DNA of 50,576 nt, taken from contig JADHVZ010000010.1 in NCBI GenBank assembly GCA_016783745.1, positions 1 through 50,576 on the forward strand, written 5' to 3'. Each line of letters opens with the position of its first letter. The stretch's first letter is position 1. The position numbers were made by a program, and so were the translations under genes. Shown here piece by piece: positions 16,268 to 26,278 of the stretch. This DNA is from Candidatus Omnitrophota bacterium. Its GTDB lineage: Bacteria; Omnitrophota; Gorgyraeia; JAHIPI01. A model generated the notes under the pieces. The model was given only the letters and a program-made list of their open reading frames with translations. It did not search any database and was not told the DNA's origin.

Positions 16268-16285
16268 ATGTTACGGAGAAAAATT

Positions 16286-17368
16286 ATGAAAAAAAATGAC
16301 CGCATTAAAAGCTTTTTGCTCGCGGGGGTCTTTGTTTTTCTGCTTTTTCCGGCATTCGGAAATTTTTCATCTTACGCGGCAGGCGGCGCCGAGGAGATAG
16401 AGGAATTTATGATGCTTGAAAAAGAAATAGAGAAGGAGAAAGAAAAAGCCCTTATAGAGCATTTTTTCAGCGAGGGAAAGCGCCTTTTTCAGGAAGGTGA
16501 TTATGAATCCGCGATCGACAGGTTTTCAAGGATCCTTGAGGTGGAGCCTGACCATACCGGCGCTAAAGCGCATATGAAGCTCATCAGAAGGAAGGTAAAT
16601 GACAGGAAGAAGATGGAGCGGCCGGAGGAGATGGCAAAAAAACTGATGAGAAACGGGCGTGTCAAATACAATAACAGGGATTATGAGGGCGCCCTTGAGG
16701 ATTTTCAGGATGCCATGGTCCTTGATTACTCTAACGAGGACATCCTTGAATGGATAAAGAGGGCAAATCGCCGTTTGCGGCTGCATGAGGCAAAAAGAGA
16801 AAAGCATGATCTTTCTGTCGAGGCGGAGGTGGCCACAAAGAACAAAGAAGTCCAGGAAAAAATTGCCATGCTTGAAATCGAAAAGTCTTACCTGCCTCCC
16901 AAAAAACCGGAAAGAAAACCCGTAGAGATCGAGGAATTATACTCTCCTGAGGAAGAAGCTGAAGAAAGGGCGAGGCAGGAGCTGATGAGAAAACTTGAGA
17001 AGAAAATGGTCCCCGCGGTAAGCCTTACGGAAGCGGATATAAGAGACGTCATAAGGCAGCTTATGGAAATAACGGGAGTCACTATTGTCATTGATGAAGG
17101 CGCTCTCGCGGCCGCGGCGGGCAAGGAACCTCTGCGTATAACATTCAGTACGGTCAATCCGCTGCCTCTTCTGGAGGTGTTAAACATAGTTCTTCGAGCT
17201 ACCGATCTAGACTATCGCGTCGAGCCCAATTATATATGGATATCTACGCCTGAAAAGCTCGAGAAGGAAAATCTGATAACGAGGACATATAGGCTGAGAT
17301 ACGGCGTCAGAAGAGTCAGAAAAGTAGAGCTTAAAGAATTTGAAACTAAATCAAGCGACACGGAGTAA
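16286..17368 (+). CDS. TPR protein with secretin N-type domain
   Basis: The 360-residue exported protein has a signal peptide (SFLLAGVFVFLLFPAFGNF), TPR-like repeats (residues about 55-165, EGKRLFQEGDYESAIDRFSR and VKYNNRDYEGALEDFQDAM), a Lys/Glu-rich linker and a C-terminal secretin/TonB short N-terminal domain (VSLTEADIRDVIRQLMEITG, then YRVEPNYIWISTPEKL). The start at ATG 16286 is chosen because GGAG lies 8 bases upstream. It seems to supply, as a separate protein, the N-domains missing from the two short secretins that follow, plus a pilotin-like TPR part. Confidence 0.75.
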   Translation: MKKNDRIKSFLLAGVFVFLLFPAFGNFSSYAAGGAEEIEEFMMLEKEIEKEKEKALIEHFFSEGKRLFQEGDYESAIDRFSRILEVEPDHTGAKAHMKLIRRKVNDRKKMERPEEMAKKLMRNGRVKYNNRDYEGALEDFQDAMVLDYSNEDILEWIKRANRRLRLHEAKREKHDLSVEAEVATKNKEVQEKIAMLEIEKSYLPPKKPERKPVEIEELYSPEEEAEERARQELMRKLEKKMVPAVSLTEADIRDVIRQLMEITGVTIVIDEGALAAAAGKEPLRITFSTVNPLPLLEVLNIVLRATDLDYRVEPNYIWISTPEKLEKENLITRTYRLRYGVRRVRKVELKEFETKSSDTE

Positions 17369-17371
17369 GAT

Positions 17372-18514
17372 ATGAGACTAAAATGCCTCTTCCTATTCGT
17401 TACGATATTCGCGCTTATTATTTTCAGCGCTTCCTCCGCTCGCGCGCAGGGTGAAGCCGACCCTGAATATACCCTGTCAGTTGAGGAATATTTAAACAGC
17501 GCGCTGCCGCCGCAAGAGGGCAGAAGCATAACCTTCAACGAAGTCACAGGCATATTGACTGTAACCGATACCCCATCCAATCAAAGACTGATAAGGAAGC
17601 TCATCAAGCAATTTGACGTGGGGCCGAGACAGGTGATGATAGAGGCGAAATTCGTAGAGATAGAATTTGAAGATCTTGACGAGATGGGCATAGAATGGTA
17701 CTGGTATAAGCACGGAGATATCACCTTAGGCGATGCCTCTACGACCACATACATGGATACTCCTCAGGTCGGCGACCCGAATGATTTTATATTCAGCGAT
17801 ACCTATAAAGGTGTCCAGTGGGATACGGACGCGAACAGCCCCTTCCCGTTATCAAACTTCGGCCTCGGGTTTATCCTATCTAAATACGAGAGTGGTAAGT
17901 TTTTGACTTCTTACCTGCGCGCTTTGGCTTCGGAGGGAAGAGCCAATCTTCTTTCCTCCCCCAAGATCACTACGTTATCGGGTCAAATGGCCAATATACA
18001 GATAACACAGACTATCCCCTATGTAAGCAATGTGGATTTTGATAATAGCGGTACTGCCGAGCACCCTATATGGCAGTTTGAATACACTATCGAAGAAAGA
18101 GTCACCGGGATCACTCTTGAGGTCACCCCTTATGTAGGCGGCGACAGTGATATAGTAACGCTTGAGATACACCCGGAAATAAGCAATCTTGTATCAAGGC
18201 GCCCGATATTCGTGGGAGAAGCCGGTAATCCGTTTACTAGCGCGGCCGCTGTCCCGGCACTTCTGGGGTGGCCGGTCATTGATACGCGCACTGCCCAAAC
18301 ATCCGTTATGGTAAAAAGCGGTGAAACCGTTGTCATGGGCGGATTTGTTCAGGATGACGATACCGTGACAAAAAAGAAGGTCCCGATCCTGGGCGACATA
18401 CCGCTGATAGGAAAGCTTTTCAGATATGACTACAAATCAAGGTCAAAGAAAAATCTTGTGATATTCCTGACAGCCACGCTTATCACCGCTGAAGGGGAAC
18501 GGGCTGAAAGATAG
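17372..18514 (+). CDS. Short secretin (first of two)
   Basis: The 380-residue product has a signal peptide (LFVTIFALIIFSASSARA), one N1-like half domain (GILTVTDTPSNQRLIRKLIK) and the secretin pore domain (PRQVMIEAKFVEIEFEDLDE, LLSSPKITTLSGQMANIQI, SVMVKSGETVVMGGFVQDDD, VPILGDIPLIGKLF). It is about half the length of ordinary GspD/PilQ because the N0 and N1-N3 domains are largely absent. It would form the outer-membrane channel. It starts 3 bases after the TPR/N-domain gene. Confidence 0.88.
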   Translation: MRLKCLFLFVTIFALIIFSASSARAQGEADPEYTLSVEEYLNSALPPQEGRSITFNEVTGILTVTDTPSNQRLIRKLIKQFDVGPRQVMIEAKFVEIEFEDLDEMGIEWYWYKHGDITLGDASTTTYMDTPQVGDPNDFIFSDTYKGVQWDTDANSPFPLSNFGLGFILSKYESGKFLTSYLRALASEGRANLLSSPKITTLSGQMANIQITQTIPYVSNVDFDNSGTAEHPIWQFEYTIEERVTGITLEVTPYVGGDSDIVTLEIHPEISNLVSRRPIFVGEAGNPFTSAAAVPALLGWPVIDTRTAQTSVMVKSGETVVMGGFVQDDDTVTKKKVPILGDIPLIGKLFRYDYKSRSKKNLVIFLTATLITAEGERAER

Positions 18515-18526
18515 GTGAGGAAAGAA

Positions 18527-19612
18527 ATGAAGAAAATATTAGGTATATTTTTATTGATTCTTATGTTGTGTTCGGCGCCGGGCCTCAAAATCACCGCCCA
18601 GGAGGAAGAAGGAGATGAGGTTATAAAATATACTATCAGAGAATACCTGGAAGCCAATATGCCGCCCCAGGACGGAAGAAAGATAGTGCTTGATGAGATA
18701 TCCGGCCTTCTCACCATCACAGATACGCCCTCGAACCAGGATCTGGCCCTTAGATTGATACGCGAGTGGGATATAGGCCCCAGGCAGGTGGAGATAGAAG
18801 CGAAATTCATAGAAATAACTTTTACTGACCTTGATGAGATGGGCGTTGACTGGAGTCTTTTCAGGGATGAGAATCCGATACTAAGCCTTGAGACAGCCAT
18901 GATGGGAAATAACGCCGCGACTACCGCCGCTACGTTTACCGAAGCGGCGCAGATGTCCGGTTTAGGGTTTTTTGCCGGCAAGGCAACCATGACAGGGGCG
19001 CAGCTTTTCGCGTACTTAAAGGCTCTTAAGCAGACCGGCAAGGTCAACCTTTTGAACGCGCCGAGAATAACCACGCTTTCCGGCCAGATGGCGAACATAC
19101 AGGTAATAAGAAGCTTTCCTTACGCCACTTCAGCGGAAAGGACAGAGGTGGAGCTGGAGACGATCGCGTTAGGCGTCACAACGAAGAACATCTACCCTGT
19201 CGAGATATATGGCATAGAGGAGGAGATCACCGGTATAACGCTTGAAGTGACACCTGTAGTAATTGAGGGGGGTGATATCATAACGCTGGATATTCATCCG
19301 GAAGTAACGAAATTAAGCCAGCAAGTGGACATCACGGGAAGTGACGCGTTCCCAAGTAACCTCGGATGGCCTATAATTGATACGCGTACGGCCCAGACAT
19401 CTGTTATGGTAAGAAGCGGTGAGACCATTATAATTGGCGGACTGATACAGGACCAGGACCAGCATACCGTAAAAAGAAAAATACCTATATTGGGAGACAT
19501 ACCCCTGTTTGGCCAGTTATTCAAATATGAATATGAAAACAGGGAAAAAAAGAATCTTGTGGTGTTTCTTACAGCCAGGCTTATTGATACGCAGGGAGAT
19601 GAGGTGCGCTGA
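18527..19612 (+). CDS. Short secretin (second of two)
   Basis: This 361-residue paralogue of the preceding secretin has the same half N-domain (GLLTITDTPSNQDLALRLIR) and pore-domain motifs (PRQVEIEAKFIEITFTDLDE, LLNAPRITTLSGQMANIQV, SVMVRSGETIIIGGLIQDQD, IPILGDIPLFGQLF). The N-terminus has a signal peptide (ILGIFLLILMLCSAPG). ATG 18527 follows GAGGAAAG. Tandem secretins suggest two channels or a mixed ring. The 3' end overlaps the next start codon. Confidence 0.88.
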   Translation: MKKILGIFLLILMLCSAPGLKITAQEEEGDEVIKYTIREYLEANMPPQDGRKIVLDEISGLLTITDTPSNQDLALRLIREWDIGPRQVEIEAKFIEITFTDLDEMGVDWSLFRDENPILSLETAMMGNNAATTAATFTEAAQMSGLGFFAGKATMTGAQLFAYLKALKQTGKVNLLNAPRITTLSGQMANIQVIRSFPYATSAERTEVELETIALGVTTKNIYPVEIYGIEEEITGITLEVTPVVIEGGDIITLDIHPEVTKLSQQVDITGSDAFPSNLGWPIIDTRTAQTSVMVRSGETIIIGGLIQDQDQHTVKRKIPILGDIPLFGQLFKYEYENREKKNLVVFLTARLIDTQGDEVR

Positions 19613-19926
19613 TGACGAAAAAGATATTTATCAGCTTTATAGCGGTGTTAACCATTGCCTCCTGCCTTACCATCCCCCCGGAGGCAGAGGCGAAGGATAA
19701 AAAGAAGCGCGCGGTCCTATCCACTGTTGACATAAACGAAGATTATGATATCCTGGGGCTGGTCAGCTACAGGAGCAATGACCTGGATCCTGAAAAAATA
19801 CATTCGGCGCTGCGGAAAAAGGCTGAAAAAATGGGCGCCGATCATGTTTTAGGCATAAGATATTACAGTAACGCCGGTTACGTTTATGGGACCGGAACGG
19901 CAGTAAAACTGAAGGAAGACAAATAG
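19612..19926 (+). CDS. Exported YbjQ-like small protein
   Basis: The 104-residue product has an N-terminal signal sequence (IFISFIAVLTIASC, a possible lipobox with Cys 18) and a core ending GADHVLGIRYYSNAG and YGTGTAVKL. This matches the pattern of YbjQ/UPF0145-type domains (GAnaVvGvry...GTAV). Its function in that family is not established. It overlaps the second secretin's stop by one base, suggesting an envelope role linked to the secretion locus. Confidence 0.6.
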   Translation: MTKKIFISFIAVLTIASCLTIPPEAEAKDKKKRAVLSTVDINEDYDILGLVSYRSNDLDPEKIHSALRKKAEKMGADHVLGIRYYSNAGYVYGTGTAVKLKEDK

Positions 19927-19951: not shown

Positions 19952-20767
19952 ATGGACCGCAAAAATCTCCCAATAATCTTCCTTATATTGTGCCTGTCAT
20001 TATCCGGCAGCGCCTTTAGAGATGAAGGCTTATTTCCGGAGCTCAAGGGGCATAAAAACACCATGAATTTCAGAGTATGGGCACCCGCAAAGGAGGATGC
20101 AGCGGCAATAGCCGGGGAACTTGAAGCATATTACAAACGCTTTCTCAGGGATCTTAAATACGGCGGCATGCTCAAGAAAAAACCGGAAATATACGTATTT
20201 AGGAATTATCAGGAATATCTTGACAAAACAGGCACCCTGGGCTATAATACTTTCGCAACCGGTGGAATAGCAATTCCTAGATCCGCAAGAAAGCCCGCCA
20301 AGATTTATAGTTTCTTGAGCGATAATCTATTAAGTGAAGTTTTACCTCATGAGCTTACTCATTTACTATTCAAGGAGATAACAGCGGGATTAAGGACGGA
20401 CGCCAGTATACCTTTATGGCTGAATGAAGGTATGGCTACTTATGAGGAGACGGGCAGGCGTTACGAGGGGTATGTCAATGCTGCGCGGGCACGAGGCGGC
20501 CTTATACCGATAGCCGAACTCGTAAATTACACAAATTATCCTTCTGCCCAGGATAAAAGAGCCCTTTTTTACGCCCAGTCGGCCAGCCTGGTAGGGTTTC
20601 TCCTTAAAAATCATGGGGGCTCTAAATTTCTCGCTTTCTCGAAAAAACTGGTCCGAGGCGGTAAAAACATAGATGAAGCGCTGTTTTCCGCATATTACCC
20701 TCAAATAAGGGATGTATCCGAGCTTAGCGCCGAATGGTCAGAATACATCGAGGGCACATCGCATTAA
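19952..20767 (+). CDS. Gluzincin metallopeptidase, peptidase MA-like (first copy)
   Basis: The 271-residue exported protein has a hydrophobic leader (LPIIFLILCLSLSGSAF) and a zinc peptidase signature: HELTH (zinc ligands in HExxH, residues about 131-135) and the downstream Glu in [15 protein letters not shown] short helix FYAQSASLVGFLL follows, as in MA-family peptidase domains. It is a predicted envelope or periplasmic protease. A paralogue lies at 22631 on the other side of the STT3-like gene; both share the HExTH and WLNEGMA motifs. Confidence 0.82.
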   Translation: MDRKNLPIIFLILCLSLSGSAFRDEGLFPELKGHKNTMNFRVWAPAKEDAAAIAGELEAYYKRFLRDLKYGGMLKKKPEIYVFRNYQEYLDKTGTLGYNTFATGGIAIPRSARKPAKIYSFLSDNLLSEVLPHELTHLLFKEITAGLRTDASIPLWLNEGMATYEETGRRYEGYVNAARARGGLIPIAELVNYTNYPSAQDKRALFYAQSASLVGFLLKNHGGSKFLAFSKKLVRGGKNIDEALFSAYYPQIRDVSELSAEWSEYIEGTSH

Positions 20768-20784
20768 CATAACTCATTGCCGGA

Positions 20785-22653
20785 GTGAATATCAGATCAA
20801 GATCTTCTTTGATATTAATCTTAGGCATCATTGCCGTTATCGGCTATCTTCTCAGAGTCAATATTTATGAGAGAAGTGTGGCCGAGACCCCGGTACCTTT
20901 TACCAACATAAACGCCTTTCATTACTATTTTGCTGATCTTGTGGCTAAAGGTGAAAGGATACCCGAGGTCTCATATAAGGTCCAGCACCCCGAGGGGATA
21001 GAGGTGTTCAAAAAGACCTCTGTCTTTATGGAGTACGTTGCCGGGTCGCTCTATAGAGTATTCGACGGACAGCGGTTTGAGGATTTTGTCCGTGATTTCG
21101 TGAGGGTATTTGGCGTTATTCCCGCGATAATCGTATACTTTTTCGCCAGATACATCACAGGAAGCCGCTCTGCCGCTATAGCGGCCGCGCTTTTCTACGC
21201 AGTCACTCCGGCAGCGGCGAACAGGTCCATAGGGCTTGGTTTTTTACGTGAAAACTTCACCCTGCCGTTTATTTTTTGTCATATGCTCTTTTTTGCTCTT
21301 TCTAAAGATACGAATATACGCGTTATTTATAGGCGTTTGTATCTTCTACTGGCGGGATCATCTCTATTCATAGCGCTGGCGTCGTGGCATTTTACGCAAT
21401 TCTATCTGATGGCCATCTTTTTGTTTGTGGCTTTTGAGGCGATCTTCATGGGTGGGCGCGATATCAGGCAGCAATACCTGGCCTTGATGCTTTGTTCGAT
21501 CATCGCCGCGGTAACCATCCCTTATCTGAGGGAGGTGCGTTTTATAATATCGTGCCCGATGATATTAGGCTATTCCATAATGCCGGTCCTTTATCTGAAA
21601 AAATATTTACCGAATAAGATTCTCGCGTCCGTTTTCCTCACGTGCTCTTTTCTTGTCTTGATGCTTCTGTCTATTTCTATCATGAGGGATGTCGGGACAT
21701 ATTACCATGTATATTCGCTGGGAATCGATTCCTTGAGGTTTTTTGGCGTAAAACCCTTGGATCCGTCTCTTATATCAACTGACAGCAGGATGCTCTGGGA
21801 CATCGCCCACAGCGCGCCCGGAGCAAGGGCCGCGGTCTCTTATTTTGGCCCGGCATTATTATTGGGCCTGCCATTGCTCACTGTCAGGACCAGGGAATGG
21901 TTTAAGGCAGAAGGAGTCGGCGAGAGCGGCCCTCGATCACCGCTCGTCTTATATTTGCTTCTGACTTTCGGGGTCATGTATCTTTTTATAAACAGGCTTA
22001 TGGTATTCCCGATATTTCTGTTATCCATATGGGCCGGGGGGCTGATGGTCTTGTTTAAAAAGAAGGCGTACAGGGTAATATCCGCCTCGTGTGTCTTTCT
22101 GGTCATTACTTTCGAGCTTATAAGAGCGGTCCATGCCAGCGTATATGTGGGTAATTCAGCGGAAATCATAGACCTCCTTAACTGGATAGATAAAAATACC
22201 GAAGTCAGCGCCGTTATACTTGCTCCGCCGCGCTACTCGCCTGAAATAGCGGCTTATACGGGAAGATCGATAAACCTGCATGCCAAGCTTGAGTCCAGAG
22301 AGATCAGGGATAAAACCATGAAATGGGCAAATACGCTTTTTGAGGAATCTGAAGAGCCTTTATTTAACCTGTGCAGGCAATGGGACGTTGACTATATGAT
22401 ATTTCCATCAGGGACATACAGGGCGCGGGGCGTATCAAGCTGGAGCTACATCACAGGCAATCAGACATCGAACGAAAATGATATAGGCTTTAGATTGGAG
22501 GCCCTGCCTTACAGCTTTCAGGATTTCGGGTTTGAATATTCCGGAAAAAAATTTTCCGGCCGAGCGGGTTCGGGCTTTAACAAGCCTGACTTGAAGCATT
22601 TTGACCTTATTTATAAAAAAGGACGTTTCAATGTCTATAAAGTCGTCTATTAG
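20785..22653 (+). CDS. STT3-like membrane glycosyltransferase
   Basis: The 622-residue protein starts at GTG 20785 and has many transmembrane helices (about 12). The N-terminal region [20 protein letters not shown] and HPEGIEV before the second helix resembles the EL1 region of STT3/AglB/PglB oligosaccharyltransferases (normally with a D-x-Y/DAYYH-type acidic motif). The C-terminal soluble part (residues about 460-610) includes [20 protein letters not shown] and [11 protein letters not shown], again as in STT3 C-terminal regions. The canonical WWDYG is not evident, so the exact transfer reaction is uncertain; a GT-C fold transferase is the safe call. It is flanked by two metallopeptidases. 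Confidence 0.7.
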
Positions 22654-23419
22654 ACTTATGGCGGTTTTATTATTGATGATCGCGGGAAGCGCGCCTCAGG
22701 CGGCCTCTCAGGATCTCGAGATCTTCAAAAGGGGCCATTTTGAGATCTACCATAATAATAGATCCATGGCGAATAAGCTGAGCTGGAAAGCGGAGTACCA
22801 TTATAAGCGGATACTTAACCATTTAGGCATTAAGGGTTTTCAGCCGTGGGAGAGCGGGAATAAGTGCCCAATATATATCTACGAGACGAAAAGTGATTAC
22901 ATGCAGGCAACCGGCGCGCCGGAATGGTCCCAGGGATTGGCGGAATTCAAGAACCTCAAATTTTCCAGTTATGAGAACGCGGATAAACTGCCGGAGAACA
23001 CGCTTCCGCATGAGATGACGCACATGTTCTTATTCTTGTTTATGGAAAAAAATCCTGTGCCCCTATGGCTAAACGAAGGAATGGCTCAATTTGAAGAAGA
23101 GGACAAGAAGACAAACTACCGCAGAAAGCGTTTTGCGAAATCACTTCTCAGCACATCCTCATTTATACCGTTAGATCAGCTTCTGAGCCTGACTCGGGTA
23201 CCGGAAGATAATGTCGAGCTTTTCTACGCGCAGTCCGCGAGCGTAGTGGACCATCTTATAAATGACAATTTAAGGGCAAATTACGGGAGATTTCTTACAG
23301 GCGTTAAAAACGGCAAGTCGGCCGAAGACGCGCTGAAGGAATCATATCAGTGGAAGTATAAAAACGGCGTAGCCGACCTCGAAAAGCGCTGGCTCGAGTT
23401 CGTGCGAAAGAAGTATTAG
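22631..23419 (+). CDS. Gluzincin metallopeptidase, peptidase MA-like (second copy)
   Basis: The 262-residue exported protein starts at ATG 22631 (AAAGGA seven bases upstream), overlapping the STT3-like gene by 23 bases. A signal peptide ([16 protein letters not shown]) is followed by the catalytic domain: HEMTH with zinc-binding His residues and catalytic Glu, then [16 protein letters not shown] and [13 protein letters not shown]. It shares layout and motifs with the peptidase at 19952. The arrangement peptidase, transferase, peptidase suggests a joint role in processing surface glycoproteins or pilins; that is inference. Confidence 0.82.
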
Positions 23420-23430
23420 TATAGATGTGA

Positions 23431-23616
23431 AGCAATGTTGATATGCCCCGAGCGAATCAAAAATTTAGCCTCGAGCAAGCAAAAAATCGGTTTCTAAAAG
23501 GACGGTCGCTGTCCGAGCCGACGCGGTAGCGTCAGGCGAGTTCGACCGTCCCCGATTTTTTGCGCCGCGAGAGGCGTATAAAATTTTTGTTGAGCGGAGG
23601 GGCTATCAACATTGCT
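23431..23616. repeat. Fold-back element H: 186-base nested palindrome before polA
   Basis: The gap is one nested inverted repeat. Outer arms AGCAATGTTGATA (23431-23443) and TATCAACATTGCT (23604-23616) are perfectly complementary. Inside them pair GCCCC (23445-23449) with GGGGC (23599-23603), AAAAATTT (23459-23466) with AAATTTTT (23581-23588), AAAAAATCGG (23481-23490) with CCGATTTTTT (23552-23561), and GGACGGTCG (23500-23508) with CGACCGTCC (23543-23551). The tip is GACGC-GGTA-GCGTC (23520-23533). The element runs up to the polA start. It could be a small non-autonomous mobile element, a terminator, or a structured RNA. Confidence 0.9.
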
Positions 23617-23620
23617 TAAG

Positions 23621-26278
23621 ATGAAAGATAGGATTATGAAACTATTCTTAATAGACGGGAACTTTTTTTGCTATAGGGCGTTTTACGCCATCAAGAGCCT
23701 GGCCACTTCGCGCGGCGAGCCTACAAACGCGGTCTACGGCTTTATCGCGATGCTGAGAAAGCTTATAAAGACCGAGCGGCCGGATTATCTGGGCGTAGCC
23801 TTCGATCTCAAGGGTCCCACATTCAGGCACAAAAAATTTAAGGAGTATAAGATCCACAGAAAGCCTATGCCGGATGAGATGGTAACGCAGATGCCGGTCA
23901 TAAAGGAGGTCGTCTCCGCCTACAACATCCCGATATTCGAAAAGGAAGGATATGAGGCCGATGACGTATTGGCCACCATCGCAAGAAAGCTGGCGGATGA
24001 AAAACTTGACGTATATATCGTAACAGGGGATAAGGACGCGCTGCAGCTTGTGTGCCCGCATATAAAGGTATATTCCACTCATAAAGAGGGACTTATATAC
24101 GACGAGGAAAAGGTCAAAACCAGATACGGCGTCGAACCCGGGAAAATAGTGGATCTTCTCGCCCTCATGGGAGACTCTTCGGATAATATCAGCGGAGTGC
24201 CGGGCTTCGGTGAAAAAACCGCCGTATCTCTCATGAAAGACTTTAAGAGCCTTGAAGAAATACTCGCGGAGCCGGAAAAGATAAAACAGGAGGCGAAAAA
24301 AAAGTTGATCGTGGAACACGCGGATAAAGCGAGATTAAGCAAGGAACTGGCTACTCTTGACGATAAAGTCCCTATAGAGATAGAGCTGGAAAGTATGAGG
24401 CTCAAGGCGCCGGATCCAGCCTCCCTTTATGAAATATTCAAGAGGCTTGAATTTAAAAACCTGATCAAAGAGTACGCCCCCGCGAGTACGCTTGAATCCG
24501 ACTATCACCTGATAGACAATAGCGCCGGACTTGAGGGCCTTCTAAAAAAATTGAAGAGTCAGGATATATTCGCCCTGGATTTTGAGACTACGGGCCCTGA
24601 CCCGATGACAGCCAGGCCTATTGGAATATCATTCTCCTTTAAAGAGGGCGAGGCCTTTTACGTCGATTTTAAGTCTGAGGGCAGCAGGATATTAAACAGT
24701 TTAAAAGGCTTACTCGAGGACTCAAAAATAAAAAAGGTCGGGCAGAACATCAAGTATGAATACATAATCCTCGCGAATCAGGGCATAGAGCTTAAGGGTA
24801 TATATTTTGATACGATGATAGCCTCATATCTTTTAAATCCGTCAAAGTTAAACCATAATCTCGACGATATATCCATGGAATACCTGAATTACAAAATGAT
24901 ACCTCTCTCAGAGCTGCTCGGAACCGGAAAAAAGAAGATCACCCTTGATCAGGTGGAGGTAAGAAGGGTGTGTGAATATTCCTGCGAGGACGCGGATGTC
25001 ACATTCAGGCTGATGCGGATATTCGAGGACCTGCTGAAAGAAAAGGGGCTCTACAATCTTTTCAGGAATGTGGAAATGCCTCTGGTGGAAGTGCTTGCCG
25101 AGATGGAGATAGCAGGCGTGGCTTTAGATTCTGAGTTCCTCTATGATATGTCACAAAAGATCGAGAAAAGGCTGGAGGGCATAACGGGCGAGATATATGA
25201 GATGGCGGGGGGCGAGTTTAACATAAAGAGCCATCAGCAGCTTTCACATGTGTTGTTTGAAAAGCTTGGCCTGCCGGTAATCAAAAGGACAAAGACCGGT
25301 ATTTCAACCGACGAGGAGGTGCTGCGCCGGCTTGAGCACATCAACCCTATAATAGGCCTTATACTGGAACATAGGACTCTTTCCAAGTTAAAGTCCACTT
25401 ATATAGACGCCCTTCCGGCAATGATCAATAAAAAAACAGGCCGCGTCCACACTTCATTTAACCAGACAGTCACAGCTACCGGAAGGCTCTCAAGCAGCAA
25501 TCCGAACCTGCAGAACATCCCTATAAGAACCGATATGGGGAGAGAGATACGGAAGGCCTTTACCCCCTTGAAAAAAGGTGATGTTCTGATATCGGCGGAT
25601 TATTCGCAAATAGAGTTAAGGATAATGGCGCATTTCTCTCATGAGAAAAATCTGATCAACGCGTTTAAAAAGGGCCACGATATACATACATTCACGGCGG
25701 CGCGTATTTTCGGGATAAAGGAGAGTGATGTCACCAAAGTGATGCGCTCCCAGGCAAAGACCGTAAATTTCGGGATCATCTACGGGATGAGCCCGTACGG
25801 ACTGGCCAGGGACCTCAGGATCGATGTCTCCGAGGCAGAGAGTTTCATCGAAAATTATTTTGAACGCTATCCCGACGTAAAGAAGTATCTTGAAAGTCAG
25901 CGAGACATGGCCCGCCGGAAAGGCTACGTCATCACCATACTGAACAGGCGGCGGTATCTCCCCGAGATCAACAGCCCAAACGTAAACATAAGACAATTCG
26001 CGGAAAGGGCGGCGATCAACACTCCGATACAGGGATCCGCGGCTGACCTGATCAAAGTGGCTATGCTTAATATAGCCGGGATCATCAAAGAAAGAAAACT
26101 TGAGAGCAAGATGATATTGCAGGTGCATGACGAATTACTTTTTGAAGCGAAAAAAAGCGAAGCGGAAGAACTTAAAAAAATCATCAAGGACGAAATGGAG
26201 AACGTATTCAAGCTAAAGGTCCCTATAACCGTACATCTAGGTGAGGGGGCCAATTGGCTTGAGGCTGAAGGTAAGTAG
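23621..26278 (+). CDS. polA: DNA polymerase I
   Basis: This is a full-length, 885-residue DNA polymerase I for Okazaki-fragment processing and repair. The 5'-3' exonuclease domain (residues about 6-290) has LIDGNFFCYRAFYAI, ADDVLATIA and the helix-hairpin-helix GDSSDNISGVPGFGEKTA. The 3'-5' exonuclease (about 310-490) keeps the Asp/Glu pair in LDFETTGPD. The polymerase core has motif A DYSQIELRIMAHFS near 660, motif B RSQAKTVNFGIIYGMSPYG and motif C VHDELLFE near 836. Starts at TTG 23612, ATG 23621 or ATG 23636 are possible; family N-termini begin at the 23636 Met. Confidence 0.97.
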   Translation: MKDRIMKLFLIDGNFFCYRAFYAIKSLATSRGEPTNAVYGFIAMLRKLIKTERPDYLGVAFDLKGPTFRHKKFKEYKIHRKPMPDEMVTQMPVIKEVVSAYNIPIFEKEGYEADDVLATIARKLADEKLDVYIVTGDKDALQLVCPHIKVYSTHKEGLIYDEEKVKTRYGVEPGKIVDLLALMGDSSDNISGVPGFGEKTAVSLMKDFKSLEEILAEPEKIKQEAKKKLIVEHADKARLSKELATLDDKVPIEIELESMRLKAPDPASLYEIFKRLEFKNLIKEYAPASTLESDYHLIDNSAGLEGLLKKLKSQDIFALDFETTGPDPMTARPIGISFSFKEGEAFYVDFKSEGSRILNSLKGLLEDSKIKKVGQNIKYEYIILANQGIELKGIYFDTMIASYLLNPSKLNHNLDDISMEYLNYKMIPLSELLGTGKKKITLDQVEVRRVCEYSCEDADVTFRLMRIFEDLLKEKGLYNLFRNVEMPLVEVLAEMEIAGVALDSEFLYDMSQKIEKRLEGITGEIYEMAGGEFNIKSHQQLSHVLFEKLGLPVIKRTKTGISTDEEVLRRLEHINPIIGLILEHRTLSKLKSTYIDALPAMINKKTGRVHTSFNQTVTATGRLSSSNPNLQNIPIRTDMGREIRKAFTPLKKGDVLISADYSQIELRIMAHFSHEKNLINAFKKGHDIHTFTAARIFGIKESDVTKVMRSQAKTVNFGIIYGMSPYGLARDLRIDVSEAESFIENYFERYPDVKKYLESQRDMARRKGYVITILNRRRYLPEINSPNVNIRQFAERAAINTPIQGSAADLIKVAMLNIAGIIKERKLESKMILQVHDELLFEAKKSEAEELKKIIKDEMENVFKLKVPITVHLGEGANWLEAEGK

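Follow-up and report, generated by a model that had tools for sequence, protein, structure and literature searches.

How does a membrane glycosyltransferase come to lie between two exported metallopeptidases, and do the three genes form one functional unit? The question is raised by a trio of genes in a 50,576-nucleotide stretch of DNA from a Candidatus Omnitrophota bacterium (assembly GCA_016783745.1, contig JADHVZ010000010.1, positions 1 to 50,576; hereafter the window), in which pep1, a transferase gene and pep2 follow the secretin genes of a type IV pilus (T4P)/type II secretion system (T2SS) operon. A sequence-only reading of this DNA had described two related gluzincins bracketing an STT3-like transferase directly after the secretins, and proposed that the trio may glycosylate and trim a secreted or pilus protein. 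We confirmed that the arrangement is real, and the interpretation given to it is partly supported. On balance, we lean towards a composite origin: two envelope gluzincins already stood as a pair where a pilus/secretion operon ends, and a DPY19-type gene was later added to them. The transferase is of more interest than that first reading supposed, and the trio of less.

Both peptidases match the Pfam family Peptidase_MA_2 (PF13485; pep1, 67.8 bits; pep2, 47.2 bits; cut-off, 32.4 bits), both carry a zinc motif (HELTH in pep1, HEMTH in pep2) together with WLNEGMA, and they are 31% identical to each other (E 3e-20), as expected of the related gluzincins first described. Residues H133, E134, H137 and E159 (pep1 numbering) are invariant across 24 aligned family members, and the combination of Pfam match, HExxH and distal Glu that marks a gluzincin is present in both proteins. 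Their N-termini, judged by eye, resemble signal peptides. When a structure model of pep1 (pLDDT 91.1) was searched with Foldseek, the top matches were collagenase peptidase domains (best E 3.6e-6), followed by an M30 peptidase and leukotriene A4 hydrolase (E 9.8e-4), in keeping with a gluzincin. The HExxH-plus-Glu fold is common to pep1 and to the collagenase and leukotriene A4 hydrolase domains, but pep1 is a short single domain of ∼270 amino acids whose score for Pfam Peptidase_M9 (19.2 bits) lies below the cut-off. A single-sequence search of the PDB with pep1 gave weak matches to repeat domains of a toxin (E 0.00056, residues 28–67) and to a viral protein, which we judged to be chance.

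The genes of the trio are closely packed. Only 17 bases separate pep1 from the transferase gene, and pep2, read from its more likely start (ATG at 22631; a TTG at 22601 is possible), shares 23 bases with the 3′ end of that gene, spacing which suggests that the three are probably translated together. The same gene order, with the same 23-base overlap, recurs in a genome of another genus (G053), where the transferase is 54% identical, and hence the arrangement is not an artefact of one assembly. The order in the window is secretins, a small gene, pep1, transferase, pep2, polA, coaE and rho. Linkage to the secretins, as originally described, was borne out; direct contact was not, since the small gene, of 104 amino acids, stands between. 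Downstream, G053 conserves the whole order polA-coaE-rho-prfA-prmC-murA, and G134 and G047 share it up to prfA.

Comparison at the level of the class (20 loci plus G053) takes the trio apart. In G134, the order is secretins, small gene, pep1, pep2, polA, coaE and rho, and in G386 it is secretins, small gene, pep1 and pep2, with no transferase in either; G047 shows secretins, small gene, pep2 and polA. The transferase is found in two of the four genomes of the window's family, and lies between the peptidases in this one family only. In G384, a member of that family, nothing between the small gene and polA matches a peptidase or the transferase, and in G385 a pep1 scar of ∼39 codons, 69% identical (L147:4786-4903), directly precedes polA, the rest of the trio being missing. 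Completeness is 81% for G384 and 74% for G385, but the junctions lie inside contigs. A tree of the peptidases resolves a pep1 group and a pep2 group, each at 100/99 and each holding the window, G053, G134 and G386, indicating that the duplication predates the split of those families. Given the transferase-free pairs in other families, the losses in G384 and G385 and the peptidase tree, we rejected the trio as an ancestral unit. Genes standing apart in relatives (G134, G386, G047, G384, G385 and the second phylum considered below) were also what the sequence-only reading had named as telling against its own proposal. We regard pep1 and pep2 as probable envelope proteases, translated with the transferase but not dependent on it.

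Of 17 peptidase loci examined elsewhere in the class, outside the secretin-polA block, 11 lie in a murD-ftsW-murG-PEP-murC-murB-ddl cluster, and another 4 adjoin GspE-GspF or pilin-like genes. The mur-cluster calls are based on length, order and protein starts, with gene families confirmed for one example, and the T2SS families were confirmed in L091. In the mur-cluster loci (L081, L082, L084-L090, L093, L096), a Peptidase_MA_2 protein of ∼265 amino acids sits between murG and murC; we know of no description of a metallopeptidase inside that cell-wall cluster. These positions tie the peptidase family to the building of the envelope in this class, one branch of it lying in pilus operons. The window's genome also has a further tandem pair of HExxH-type metallopeptidases, of 587 and 292 amino acids, beside a PKD-repeat-like gene (L189:3414-6065, on G000:C24).

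DPY19 is the tryptophan C-mannosyltransferase of animals (metazoans) and alveolates, and to our knowledge the family is held to be missing from bacteria. Among open-licence PMC papers, none on bacterial DPY19 (PF10034) was recognised by title or abstract. The window transferase scores 89.2 bits with Pfam Dpy19 (PF10034; cut-off, 27.2; split in the genome scan into pieces of 43.1 bits and 40.5 bits) and does not match Pfam STT3 (PF02516) at E 0.1. Its match to the NCBIfam archaeal STT3 model is weak (21.5 bits; cut-off, 450). A single-sequence search of the PDB returned chance matches only. With a profile built from 18 relatives, after removal of C-terminal tetratricopeptide repeat (TPR) tails, just two distinct PDB sequences were found at E 0.01, namely CeDPY19 (PDB 7zlg-7zlj; 108.8 bits, E 2.3e-30) and one STT3 (44.2 bits). 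The AlphaFold2 model (pLDDT 88.6, pTM 0.88) is a polytopic glycosyltransferase C (GT-C) protein with a luminal dome like that of CeDPY19, which Foldseek ranks first (E 2.9e-18, TM 0.78/0.74), with STT3 entries from E 7.5e-16. The GT-C assignment made at the outset is thus upheld, and the label STT3-like is apt at the superfamily level; by sequence, DPY19 is nearer. We describe the transferase as DPY19-like by sequence and, on the evidence of its model, as a member of the DPY19/STT3 fold group.

To see how widely such proteins occur, we surveyed 384 genomes of the window's phylum, 44 genomes of a second phylum (that of G392) and 14 named control genomes. At E 0.001, PF10034 is matched in 6 genomes of the window's phylum, in 3 of them over the cut-off. 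The family profile, which is more sensitive, found 12 genomes at E 1e-5, with only the window's genome (G000), G053 and G104 above 60 bits. Matches of 25–35 bits in the nine others were not counted as members, and there the PF13485 matches are on other contigs or missing. Weak PF10034 matches in G275, G052, G127 and G373 cover part of the profile only (the C-terminal half in G275 and G052), that of G373 lying inside a large membrane protein of a different type, and these matches were set aside. In the second phylum, PF10034 matches occur in 18 of the 44 genomes, 16 of them over the cut-off. None of the 14 controls has a match.

Loci were analyzed from 16 of these 18 second-phylum genomes (G403 and G418, with no match above 25 bits, were left out), and many of the copies adjoin a secretin gene and coaE. 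In 14 of the 16, coaE and then rho lie directly 3′ of a transferase copy; the other two genomes carry their copies elsewhere. A secretin lies 5′ of the transferase in all 11 of those 14 genomes whose contig reaches that far, either directly (G395, G396, G397 and G409) or across polA (the other seven); five of these secretins were checked with Pfam. Outside the T4P block are four further copies, two of them in G392, one in G398 and one in G432. The block in the window is that of the second phylum with a different transferase insertion point: between the peptidases in the window, and between secretin/polA and coaE in the second phylum. Second-phylum copies are 25–36% identical to that of the window. 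Most (e.g. L097, L102 and L104) carry C-terminal TPR repeats, which the window copy lacks. The sequence L046/L013, which was used in alignment A3 but excluded from A4, appears to end in adapter sequence: the last ∼80 bases of L013, near the end of public contig CAKZYZ010000076.1, look adapter-like. In three second-phylum genomes (L106:6263-7573, L108:10445-11761 and L109:10090-11403), a pseudopilin-like protein of ∼437 amino acids with an HExxH string is encoded between rho and prfA, and the L109 copy matches T2SSG at 30.7 bits.

We then read the active-site columns in a family alignment to CeDPY19 comprising 18 rows (16 from the second phylum, the window and G053). The roles of Glu71, Arg471, Trp262, Arg211, Lys473 and Tyr578 were read against the mutant data of PMC10154233; PMC12990085, PMC9338275 and PMC7801869 were also drawn on. 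The donor-phosphate ligands are retained in the window copy: the Trp262 column (window Trp201) is invariant in all 18 rows and the Arg471 column (Arg404) is Arg in the 17 rows with letters. Arg211 is likewise present in 18/18 rows (Arg147). External loop 2 (EL2) of the window copy reads Arg147-x6-Leu154-Arg155-Glu156. According to PMC6801728, EL2 of DPY19 reads Rx6LRE and its STT3 counterpart Rx6DNE. Together with the dome motif H-x3-E-x4-R and the fold over the whole length, these features are shared with CeDPY19.

The remaining columns set the window copy apart from CeDPY19. The column of the catalytic base, Glu71, in external loop 1 (EL1), holds Glu in all 16 second-phylum rows but Ile in the window (Ile42) and G053, an assignment that rests on an ungapped loop match; neither of the two copies has the Glu (or Asp) expected of a C-mannosyltransferase. 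The acceptor pocket keeps its Arg, with Lys473 and Tyr578 replaced. At the Tyr578 column, the window (Leu502) and G053 have Leu, and the other 15 rows with letters carry Phe or Tyr; Lys473 is retained in none of 17 rows (Met406 in the window); and Pro576 is Ala in the window. Because Lys473 is not kept, the second-phylum copies, which retain the donor site and the base, probably read a sequon other than WxxW. Given the change of the EL1 Glu to Ile and of the Trp-stacking aromatic to Leu, we do not expect the window's family to C-mannosylate tryptophan by the mechanism of CeDPY19. Differences between the window and G053 transferases at codon positions 1–3 are 0.39, 0.23 and 0.57, comparable to 0.36, 0.27 and 0.60 for prmC, a pattern that indicates purifying constraint. 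This constraint suggests that the window protein is probably either an altered enzyme or a non-catalytic protein that binds the acceptor or a lipid-linked sugar.

On the composite reading, the transferase would sit in the cytoplasmic membrane, with the conserved Trp201/Arg404 site receiving a polyprenyl-phosphate sugar, and its periplasmic target would be an exported protein, most probably a component of the pilus/secretion machine whose genes adjoin those of the second-phylum relatives. In the second phylum, with Glu71 intact, it would probably be an active DPY19-type protein glycosyltransferase; in the window's family, catalysis has probably been altered or given up in favor of binding. There is some precedent for such a setting, in that GT-C pilin glycosyltransferases such as TfpW of Pseudomonas have their genes next to those of pilins, and there the target pilin is established. 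Both are T4P-linked membrane transferases, TfpW belonging, we assume, to another GT-C family. The window's genome has glycosyltransferase family 2 genes resembling polyprenyl-phosphate hexose synthases, and hence a sugar donor is possible; the best is AglJ-like at 161.9 bits (NCBIfam cut-off, 325), and none in this genome exceeds its cut-off.

Several observations weigh against this account. A structural comparison (VIA-align) gave Z 32.1 for CeDPY19 (3.1 Å over 581 residues) and Z 35.1 for yeast STT3 (3.2 Å over 526 residues), with human STT3 also at about 35, and hence fold alone puts the transferase no nearer DPY19. In the transferase tree, a 100/99 branch separates all 12 T4P-block copies included from those of the window and G053, which group with the four copies from outside the T4P block; 33% of bootstrap trees place the non-T4P copies as one side of a branch. 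The association with T4P may therefore have arisen independently in the two cases, and the tree does not establish a single origin of the T4P position. The link to T4P is based on gene order, which could be inherited without function. WxxW/C sequons, part of the CeDPY19 system, are absent from the T4P proteins of the window, including the exported neighbors of the trio, and the scan led us to reject the idea of such targets there; the two sequons among all window open reading frames of at least 90 amino acids lie outside the T4P operon. In second-phylum T4P blocks, WxxW/C occurs in one pilin-like protein. Finally, in G104, the sole PF13485 match of the genome lies directly upstream of an STT3-type GT-C gene (L188:4688-7443; PF02516, 45.8 bits; family profile, 130.9 bits; Asp, by eye, at the Glu71 column). 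This pair follows a PKD-domain lipoprotein-like gene and is outside any T4P cluster. At an estimated ∼1,500 genes in such a genome, a given gene would by chance touch a single-copy gene about twice in 1,500, which lends some weight to a functional link between peptidase and GT-C protein. That such a link can arise elsewhere argues against pure accident.

Of the alternatives to a composite origin, a tentative case can be made that the transferase is a pseudoenzyme that serves the secretin/T4P machine as a membrane chaperone or lipid-sugar binder, its ligand being an unfolded acceptor peptide or a polyprenyl-phosphate sugar. The Ile and Leu at the Glu71 and Tyr578 columns in both the window and G053, the retained donor residues and the purifying constraint would all fit. 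However, the flanking Asn41, Asn43 and His46 or the invariant Glu156 might substitute for the lost acid, and the binding itself is putative. Rather unlikely, in our estimate, is a dedicated modification-processing unit, in which an exported pilin or pseudopilin is glycosylated by the transferase and cut, in its glycosylated or unglycosylated form, by the peptidases. The conserved order and overlap in G053, the joint disappearance of the three genes from G384 and, the scar apart, from G385, the independent pair in G104 and the peptidase relatives beside GspE-GspF and pilin genes all point this way. Set against these are the transferase-free pairs in G134 and G386, the loss of the EL1 acid, the lack of a sequon-bearing target among the window's T4P proteins and the absence of PF13485 from the contigs carrying a DPY19-type gene in the 16 second-phylum genomes examined (some of these contigs are short). 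A drifted STT3-type oligosaccharyltransferase, active in N-glycosylation, is improbable: STT3, PglB and AglB share the GT-C fold with the window transferase over its whole length, and the higher Z value and faint archaeal STT3 match agree with such a descent, but the window protein has neither Rx6DNE nor an EL1 acid, Pfam recognizes it as Dpy19 and not as STT3, and the family profile favors CeDPY19 by 65 bits.

The features of the locus are collected in Table 1.

Table 1. Positions in the window of the trio, its sequence motifs and the adjoining genes
Feature	Coordinates	Strand	Evidence or remark
TPR protein of the T4P/T2SS operon, with an STN/secretin N0-like end	16268..17368	+	TPR_2 29.4 bits; STN 26.1 bits (below cut-off)
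Secretin 1	17372..18514	+	PF00263 148.9 bits
Secretin 2	18515..19612	+	PF00263 143.7 bits
Small secreted-type protein, 104 amino acids, position kept in relatives	19612..19926	+	Pfam matches all below cut-off
pep1, Peptidase_MA_2 gluzincin, exported-type, 271 amino acids	19952..20767	+	PF13485 67.8 bits; model; Foldseek
pep1 HELTH zinc motif (residues 133-137)	20348..20362	+	Glu159 of NEG is the likely third ligand
DPY19-like GT-C membrane transferase, 622 amino acids	20785..22653	+	PF10034 89.2 bits; profile; Foldseek
Ile42 codon, column of CeDPY19 catalytic base Glu71	20908..20910	+	Family alignment
Rx6LRE motif of EL2 (Arg147-Glu156)	21223..21252	+	Motif from PMC6801728
Trp201 codon, equivalent to CeDPY19 Trp262 (donor phosphate)	21385..21387	+	Invariant in 18/18 rows
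Arg404 codon, equivalent to CeDPY19 Arg471 (donor phosphate)	21994..21996	+	17/17 rows with letters
pep2, Peptidase_MA_2 gluzincin, overlaps transferase stop	22631..23419	+	PF13485 47.2 bits
pep2 HEMTH zinc motif	23009..23023	+	Sequence
polA, first gene 3′ of the trio; opens the polA-coaE-rho-prfA-prmC-murA block	23612..26278	+	Order kept in relatives

If these assignments are extended, the second phylum may own true DPY19-family protein C-glycosyltransferases, with the catalytic Glu, Arg and Trp in place, encoded beside a T4P/secretin operon, the window's family then being a derived branch with changed chemistry that joined two envelope peptidases. We regard this as a possibility well short of an even chance. 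If true, neither protein C-glycosylation nor DPY19 would be limited to metazoans and alveolates. A bacterial family with the catalytic and donor residues of DPY19 makes both bacterial protein C-glycosylation and the source of eukaryotic DPY19 open to test, and the window copy, as a natural variant of the catalytic Glu, could reveal what the fold does without it.

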